Below, in pieces: positions 9,290 through 10,329 of a stretch of 64,000 nt of DNA. The position numbers and the translations under genes were made by a program. A model generated the notes under the pieces. That model was not told where the DNA came from and did not search any database. It was given only the letters and a program-made list of their open reading frames with translations. The stretch's first letter is position 1. Each line of letters opens with the position of its first letter. Source of the DNA: Humisphaera borealis. Lineage in GTDB: Bacteria; Planctomycetota; Phycisphaerae; Tepidisphaerales; Tepidisphaeraceae. Where the stretch lies: positions 3,100,001-3,164,000 of the forward strand of contig NZ_CP063458.1 in assembly GCF_015169395.1 (NCBI RefSeq), read 5' to 3'.

Positions 9290-9387
9290 AGGAGCCGCGC
9301 ACGGAGTGTACTCACGGAGTAAGCGGGCACGGCGCGGTTCGGGGTCATCCCCGCTTACTCCGTGAGTACACTTCGTGCGCGGCTCCT
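9290..9387. repeat. Long hairpin, second sequence family
   Basis: Arms of 38 nt (9290-9327 and 9350-9387) match with a single mismatch around a 22-nt loop. The outer sequence is AGGAGCCGCGCAC and the inner sequence ACTCACGGAGTAAGCGGG. It is unrelated in sequence to the hairpin at 8025 but has the same architecture. It sits just past the stop of the acidic zinc-ribbon gene. There is no T-run, so it is not a classical terminator. Confidence 0.88.
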
Positions 9388-9396
9388 TGGAACCCC

Positions 9397-10329
9397 TCAG
9401 AACGGAATGTCGTCGTCGGAAAACTTGCCGTCACGCGGCTTGTTGTAGTGTTCGTCGCGACGGTCCTCACGGTCTGACCAGTCCAGGATCCGCGGCCGCT
9501 GGTCGGGCTCGTCGTATCGCTTCTGATCTTCCTCCCACTCGCGGCGGGCGTCTTCCCGCCAGGCCGGTTCGGGGGGACGCTCGCCGGGCTGAAGGCCCAG
9601 CTTCCACTCTTCGCCTTCAAGGTCGTCCGAATCGTCGCAGAAGAGGTCCATGTCGGCGTACTGCGGTTCGGCCGGGTCGTACTCCTGGTTATCGTCGTCG
9701 GCGTCAGGTTCGAGTTCCGACCAGTCGGAGTCGATCTCGCTGTCGTCGGTGTCGCTTTCCTCGTCTTCGTCGTCGAACTCATCATCCTCGTCGTCGTCGT
9801 AATGCCAGCCTTCGTTGGCAGGGTGATCGGGATCGGTCGGGAAGATGTCGAAGGTGAATCCGGCACCCGAGCAGTTGGGCGTAGGGCACATCCAGAATCC
9901 GTCGAACCCCTGCGGGTCGTTGATCACTTTCTGGAACCAGATGCCCTGGCTGGAAAACGTCCGCCCGCAGTGCAGGCAATGGCACTCGCAGGGCTCGGTC
10001 GGGGGCGCGAAGGAATCGTTTTTGCGACGGGGGTCGTTCGCATCCCAGCGGTCGGCGATCGAAATGGCCTCGTCCTCGCCCGGGCCGGAAAACAGATCGA
10101 TCTCCTCCGATTCGTCGGCGGTGTCGTCGTCACCGTCGTTGACGTGCGTGTCGTCACGGCCGGCGACGGGACTGCTTTCGAAATCGGCATGCCAATGCCC
10201 GGCGGCGCTTTGGGTACCTTCGGGGGAGTGCTTGGGGTCGGCGTCATCGGGGACGCCGGCCTGCGGGATGGGCCGGTCCGGTTCCGGCGGCTCGTCGAAC
10301 CGAGACTCGCGGTTCTCGTGGCTGCTCAT
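9397..10329 (-). CDS. Acidic zinc-ribbon protein with an SSB-type C-terminal tip (DDDIPF)
   Basis: This 310-residue protein belongs to no family I recognise. Its middle has a cysteine-rich zinc-ribbon-like module: C114, C116, C118 and C121 in CECHCLHCGRTF, then C148 and C153 in MCPTPNCSG. Before it is a polar, probably disordered region (1-110); after it is a very acidic stretch (about 177-235). The last residues, GKFSDDDIPF, match the conserved tip of bacterial single-stranded-DNA-binding protein, which recruits repair and replication partners. No OB-fold is visible, so it is not SSB itself. The start at 10329 opens the hydrophilic region; the frame is open to a further start at 10401. It is divergent from the ThuA-like gene. 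Confidence 0.75.
   Translation of the reverse strand: MSSHENRESRFDEPPEPDRPIPQAGVPDDADPKHSPEGTQSAAGHWHADFESSPVAGRDDTHVNDGDDDTADESEEIDLFSGPGEDEAISIADRWDANDPRRKNDSFAPPTEPCECHCLHCGRTFSSQGIWFQKVINDPQGFDGFWMCPTPNCSGAGFTFDIFPTDPDHPANEGWHYDDDEDDEFDDEDEESDTDDSEIDSDWSELEPDADDDNQEYDPAEPQYADMDLFCDDSDDLEGEEWKLGLQPGERPPEPAWREDARREWEEDQKRYDEPDQRPRILDWSDREDRRDEHYNKPRDGKFSDDDIPF

Follow-up and report, generated by a model that had tools for sequence, protein, structure and literature searches.

Bacterial SSB proteins (PF00436) consist of a folded domain, a disordered linker and an acidic tip ending in D-I-P-F. SSB is regarded as a hub whose tip, the SSB-Ct, attracts the enzymes of repair and restart. RecO is a known reader of the SSB-Ct, and PriA, RecG, RecJ and DnaG are other SSB-interacting enzymes.

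At the peptide level, the SSB-Ct binds with its last Phe buried; a basic lip receives the carboxylate and a basic ridge the Asp residues (PMC10164576). The peptide binds RecG, where the last Phe is required and a Pro-to-Ser change weakens the interaction, and the SSB-Ct has been described as both necessary and sufficient for RecG docking (PMC10164576). The SSB C-terminal domain has also been grafted onto PriB, and this chimera (PriB-SSBc) stimulates PriA (PMC8509808). In the chimera the SSB C-terminal domain sits on a different protein, comparable to the SSB-like tip of the protein described here. The chimera is an engineered construct, however, and PriB is related to SSB through its OB fold, whereas the present protein is natural and has a zinc ribbon.

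DdrB of Deinococcus has no OB fold and has been credited with an SSB-like C-terminus, and in this respect it is partly a forerunner of the protein described here. It is a single-stranded DNA-binding and annealing protein that becomes abundant when cells are irradiated, and its SSB-like motif is dispensable for radioresistance (PMC3834827). As its motif is dispensable, an SSB-like tail need not matter for function. No sequence relation between DdrB and the zinc-ribbon protein was found in Pfam, where the DdrB profile is absent from the protein's matches at E values up to 1. Apart from the remark on DdrB, a search of open-licence papers found no description of SSB-tip mimics.

Gene, protein and zinc-ribbon domain

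The gene lies within a 64,000-nucleotide stretch of DNA (the window) from a genome of a single 7.19 Mb contig. The following features are found at the locus, in coordinates of the window:

9397..10329, minus strand: gene for the protein with zinc ribbon, acidic region and SSB-like tip (310 aa, ATG start, TGA stop); orthologues in nine other genomes of the same bacterial family
9835..10020, minus strand: C4 zinc-ribbon domain, residues 104–165, AlphaFold2 model; presumed ligands C118, C121, C148 and C153
9424..9801, minus strand: acidic tether, residues 177–302, poorly conserved; mostly low model confidence, one helix at about 256–273
9400..9423, minus strand: SSB-Ct-like tip FSDDDIPF, directly preceding the stop codon at 9397–9399

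The protein ends in GKFSDDDIPF. Bases 9397–9420, read on the minus strand, are TCC GAC GAC GAC ATT CCG TTC TGA, and the DNA letters of the open reading frame 10329..9397 thus bear out an earlier note on this DNA, which had placed an SDDDIPF C-terminus at 9400–9420. The note had also described a stretch of about 60 residues, mostly Asp and Glu. This stretch is residues 177–236, with 57% Asp/Glu and no Lys or Arg. The whole protein has a calculated pI of 4.05 and a charge of about -70, and the acidic tails of all carriers in the bacterial family contain 28–40% Asp/Glu. DNA mimics present strong negative charge, arranged like the phosphates of DNA, on an ordered fold. The zinc protein is strongly acidic, but the part that carries this acidity is of low confidence in the model and is probably disordered.

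The absence of an OB fold, also claimed in the note, was upheld. The protein has no significant Pfam match, and the sole PF00436 match in the genome is another gene. The OB-fold, single-stranded DNA-binding domain that matches PF00436 in SSBs is not found in the zinc protein, which has a C4 zinc ribbon in its place and a far more acidic linker; outside the tip, no sequence relation to SSB was found. A divergent SSB or OB fold was rejected on the missing Pfam SSB match, the location of PF00436 elsewhere in the genome and the beta-rich model of the zinc domain. Searches of Pfam (no match above threshold), NCBIfam, PHROG and PADLOC gave no family match, in agreement with the note's view that no family with this combination has been described. 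Two further candidates were rejected: a mobile or phage gene, since searches of phage and plasmid records found no match and there is no PHROG, though its presence is patchy, and a defence gene, with no PADLOC hit.

The zinc module had been written as CxCxCx2C...Cx4C. Cysteines are indeed present at 114, 116, 118, 121, 148 and 153, but C114 and C116 are not conserved. Only C118, C121, C148 and C153 are invariant across 27 distinct homologues, and the module is therefore a C4 ribbon, CxxC...Cx4C. These four cysteines are placed in two knuckles on a beta ribbon, with zinc binding predicted. An AlphaFold2 model of residues 105–180, based on the 27 homologues, shows a small beta-rich fold with a mean pLDDT of 92.2. 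The domain is the best-conserved long segment of the protein (mean identity 0.47 among carriers in the bacterial family), and several non-cysteine residues are invariant or nearly so.

Foldseek gave no significant match with either the whole protein or the zinc domain alone, and a PDB sequence search returned antibody and zinc-finger noise only. VIA-align showed weak matches of the zinc domain (Z ≤2.6) to three zinc ribbons, those in MCM, in rubrerythrin and in the C-terminal domain of RIG-I. Generic C4 zinc ribbons, such as those of the MCM N-terminal region and rubrerythrin (Z up to 2.6), are likewise small beta-rich C4 modules, but the CxxC...Cx4C spacing and the conserved PP, WxCP and GFxFDI motifs belong to the new protein family. 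Most homologues have a zinc domain of net negative charge, which makes a protein a more probable ligand than DNA.

No sigma-70-like promoter was found upstream of the gene, and no conserved neighbour genes that point to a pathway were found among the loci compared. Just downstream, at 9290–9387 of the window, is a near-perfect palindrome some 98 bases long, with a folding energy as RNA of -82.8 kcal/mol (z -11.5). It has no Rfam match. Related copies are present at about 30 genome sites, and the palindrome is thus a dispersed palindromic repeat.

Conservation of the C-terminal tip

A PF00436 profile search of the genome reveals one SSB (G000:C1:4418173). This ends in SDEQHFEKDDIPF, its last eight residues being FEKDDIPF, and FSDDDIPF of the zinc protein has the same acidic D-[IL]-P-F type of C-terminus that is found in bacterial SSBs. 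The elements of the SSB-Ct motif are all present: a C-terminal Phe, a penultimate Pro, a hydrophobic residue at -3, acidic residues at -4 to -6, and purifying selection on the tip (see below). The note had proposed the tail of the genuine SSB of this genome as a check, and the comparison supports the reading as an SSB mimic; the two tails also share a hydrophobic residue at -8.

Within the 7.19 Mb, DIPF followed by a stop codon is encoded at two sites only, those of the SSB and the zinc-protein gene, and the reversed-pattern control has no match in the whole genome. A looser scan of the genome ([DE][DE][ILMV]P[FWY]-stop) adds two sites, a tiny false frame and a GemA-like protein. Over 26 genomes of the bacterial family, DIPF-stop occurs at 53 sites, compared with 5 for the reversed-pattern control; open reading frames of at least 150 aa at these sites, classed by reading their translations, are 27 SSBs, 9 zinc proteins and 5 others.

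The gene is present in 10 of the 26 genomes. Overall identity between carriers falls to about 30%, and yet nine end in DIPF and one in DMPF, with tip positions -1, -2 and -4 invariant. The last five residues have a mean identity of 0.86, as against 0.30 for the tether (residues 166–303), and form the best five-column window outside the zinc domain. Tip codons differ synonymously among the carriers. Since the tip is kept in all ten while the tether diverges, it is under selection independently of the tether, a point that the note had proposed to check. At the level of sequence comparison, the tip is demonstrably maintained by purifying selection.

Position -8 is of additional interest. In SSBs of the host's bacterial family it is Phe in 26 of 27, and none of the twelve SSBs read from outside the family has Phe there. 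The zinc proteins of the family have F, L or I at -8 in 9 of 10 cases, flanked by variable residues, compared with 0.187 for hydrophobic residues in the tethers as background, although such figures overstate independence because sequences from one family share ancestry. With the -8 hydrophobic common to the SSBs and zinc proteins of the family and the Phe absent outside it, the zinc-protein tip appears, on these alignments, to follow the local SSB tip.

A wider search employed the zinc domain only and was therefore blind to the C-terminus. Homologues were found elsewhere in Phycisphaerae (about 9 of 371 genomes of the class) and, rarely, in Pirellulales, Isosphaera and other planctomycetes; carriers are rare in the phylum. 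A scan of genome contigs with the full-length protein gave no match. Tips of the same type (DDIPF, DDIPW, DDIPY, DDLPW and DDVPF) are present in 6 of 18 distinct outside homologues. In the remainder the C-terminus is plainly acidic or a weaker acidic-aromatic one (DEGPW, DDSVF, DGFSW), and an Isosphaera copy reads DADDPPPW once an apparent frameshift is followed into the +1 frame. The tip is therefore not universal. Orthologues with unrelated C-termini had been named in the note as the observation that would count against its proposal; within the bacterial family all ten keep the tip and the proposal is not refuted, but outside it most do not, and the note's interpretation is thus supported in part. 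SSBs of the outside genomes with a readable tail all keep IPF. On the zinc-domain tree, which is poorly resolved, there are five tip-state changes compared with 9.2 in shuffles.

Tip-like motifs are also found internally. One homologue (L028, in G204) is without the C-terminal tip and has FDDIPF near the N-terminus instead, and two others (L049 and L010) have an internal motif in the acidic tail (DDLPF, DEIPW) in addition to a terminal one.

Proposed docking on SSB-client enzymes and alternative readings

The protein is fairly probably a stand-alone zinc-ribbon adaptor that carries a functional copy of the SSB-Ct on a long, flexible acidic tether and docks on SSB-client enzymes. In this reading, one or more genome-maintenance enzymes that interact with SSB would receive, in their SSB-Ct pocket, the last Phe, whose carboxylate is free, together with the Pro before it and the Asp residues. 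Candidate clients are RecO, which is encoded in the host genome, or PriA, RecG, RecJ, DnaG and similar enzymes. The zinc ribbon would bind a different ligand, more probably protein than DNA, and the protein could thereby recruit an SSB-client enzyme, or hold it in reserve, independently of SSB.

Docking is the most economical reading, since the SSB-Ct is a known docking peptide and RecO is encoded. It is supported by the D-[IM]-P-F ends of all ten carriers in the bacterial family, which stand beside a tether of 0.30 identity, by the restriction of DIPF-stop to the SSB and zinc-protein genes genome-wide, by the hydrophobic residue at -8 common to the SSBs and zinc proteins of the family, and by the DDIPF, DDIPW, DDIPY, DDLPW and DDVPF tips recovered from distant homologues with the zinc domain alone. 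Studies with RecG and the PriB graft, where the peptide alone suffices, add further support (PMC10164576; PMC8509808). The proposal is weakened by the approximately two-thirds of distinct outside homologues that are without a clean tip, several of which end in acidic residues, by the drift of most persisting outside tips away from IPF, and by the lack of a conserved neighbour gene among the loci compared.

Perhaps the protein competes rather than recruits. As a competitor or DNA-mimic regulator, its tether and tip would occupy the SSB-Ct pocket of one SSB-interacting enzyme and the basic surface next to it and keep that enzyme off SSB-coated DNA, and the zinc ribbon would provide only folding, stability or regulatory input. 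The 57% Asp/Glu over 60 residues, the charge of about -70 and the acidity in all carriers of the bacterial family are what a competitor would display, and the zinc domain, with its net negative charge in most homologues, would probably not deliver DNA to a client. However, the conservation of that domain (0.47, with invariant non-Cys residues) exceeds the need of a mere scaffold, the tether is conserved in neither sequence nor length, and in SSB, too, the tip is preceded by a linker that is long and flexible. Competition is thus considered unlikely, and recruitment is favoured.

It is less likely still that the tip binds proteins other than SSB-interacting ones, for example a PDZ-type or protease adaptor that recognises C-terminal hydrophobics, with its SSB likeness convergent. 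The tip within the bacterial family equals the SSB tip, including the extra -8 hydrophobic, and a DIPF end is found in the whole genome only in SSB and the zinc protein. The outside homologues provide the argument on the other side: their tips mostly drift to W or Y, or to L or V (IPW, IPY, LPW, VPF and possibly DDPPPW). IPF is kept by the SSBs of these genomes, and the partner might therefore not be an SSB-Ct reader.

That the tip arose by chance, or was left behind without function when the gene fused to the 3′ end of one for SSB, and has no docking role, is very improbable: Asp near the end is expected in so acidic a protein and outside homologues often lack the tip, but five residues at 0.86 beside a tether at 0.30, the synonymous codon changes and the recurrence of an exact terminal DIPF in nine genomes of the bacterial family argue otherwise, and a chance tip was rejected on the genome-wide counts and conservation.

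SSB-like tips on other proteins

GemA-like proteins (phage Mu gp16, PF06252) of the same bacterial family have acidic tips as well: DEEVPF, DESDIPF and QQDEIPI are found among G000:C1:1617432-1617911 (L122, L129), L127 (G015) and L128 (G003). A fourth GemA-like protein (G008) is without such a tip. Four further non-SSB proteins, from other genomes of the family (L087, L096, L097 and L119), have a DIPF end; these are a ResIII-type helicase (AEDDIPF), a Shedu SduA protein (NNTDIPF), a Ser/Thr kinase (DDSDIPF) and an AAA ATPase (EEEDIPF).

The docking motif itself is already known. As far as the searches show, a conserved natural family that bears it on a zinc ribbon is undescribed in the libraries and literature covered. 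It is a tentative possibility that the SSB-Ct is portable and that planctomycetes have used it as a docking motif on a number of unrelated proteins, of which the zinc-ribbon family is the clearest case; the GemA-like, helicase, AAA and kinase proteins with the same tip may be further cases.

The zinc protein, with its predicted docking, offers a natural SSB-Ct ligand for probing the pockets of RecO, PriA or RecG. If a conserved natural protein other than SSB does carry the same tip, SSB would share access to these enzymes with a rival ligand, or such a ligand would regulate it. If the motif is indeed portable, access to SSB-client enzymes would be contested by an 'SSB-tip network' and not governed by SSB alone.
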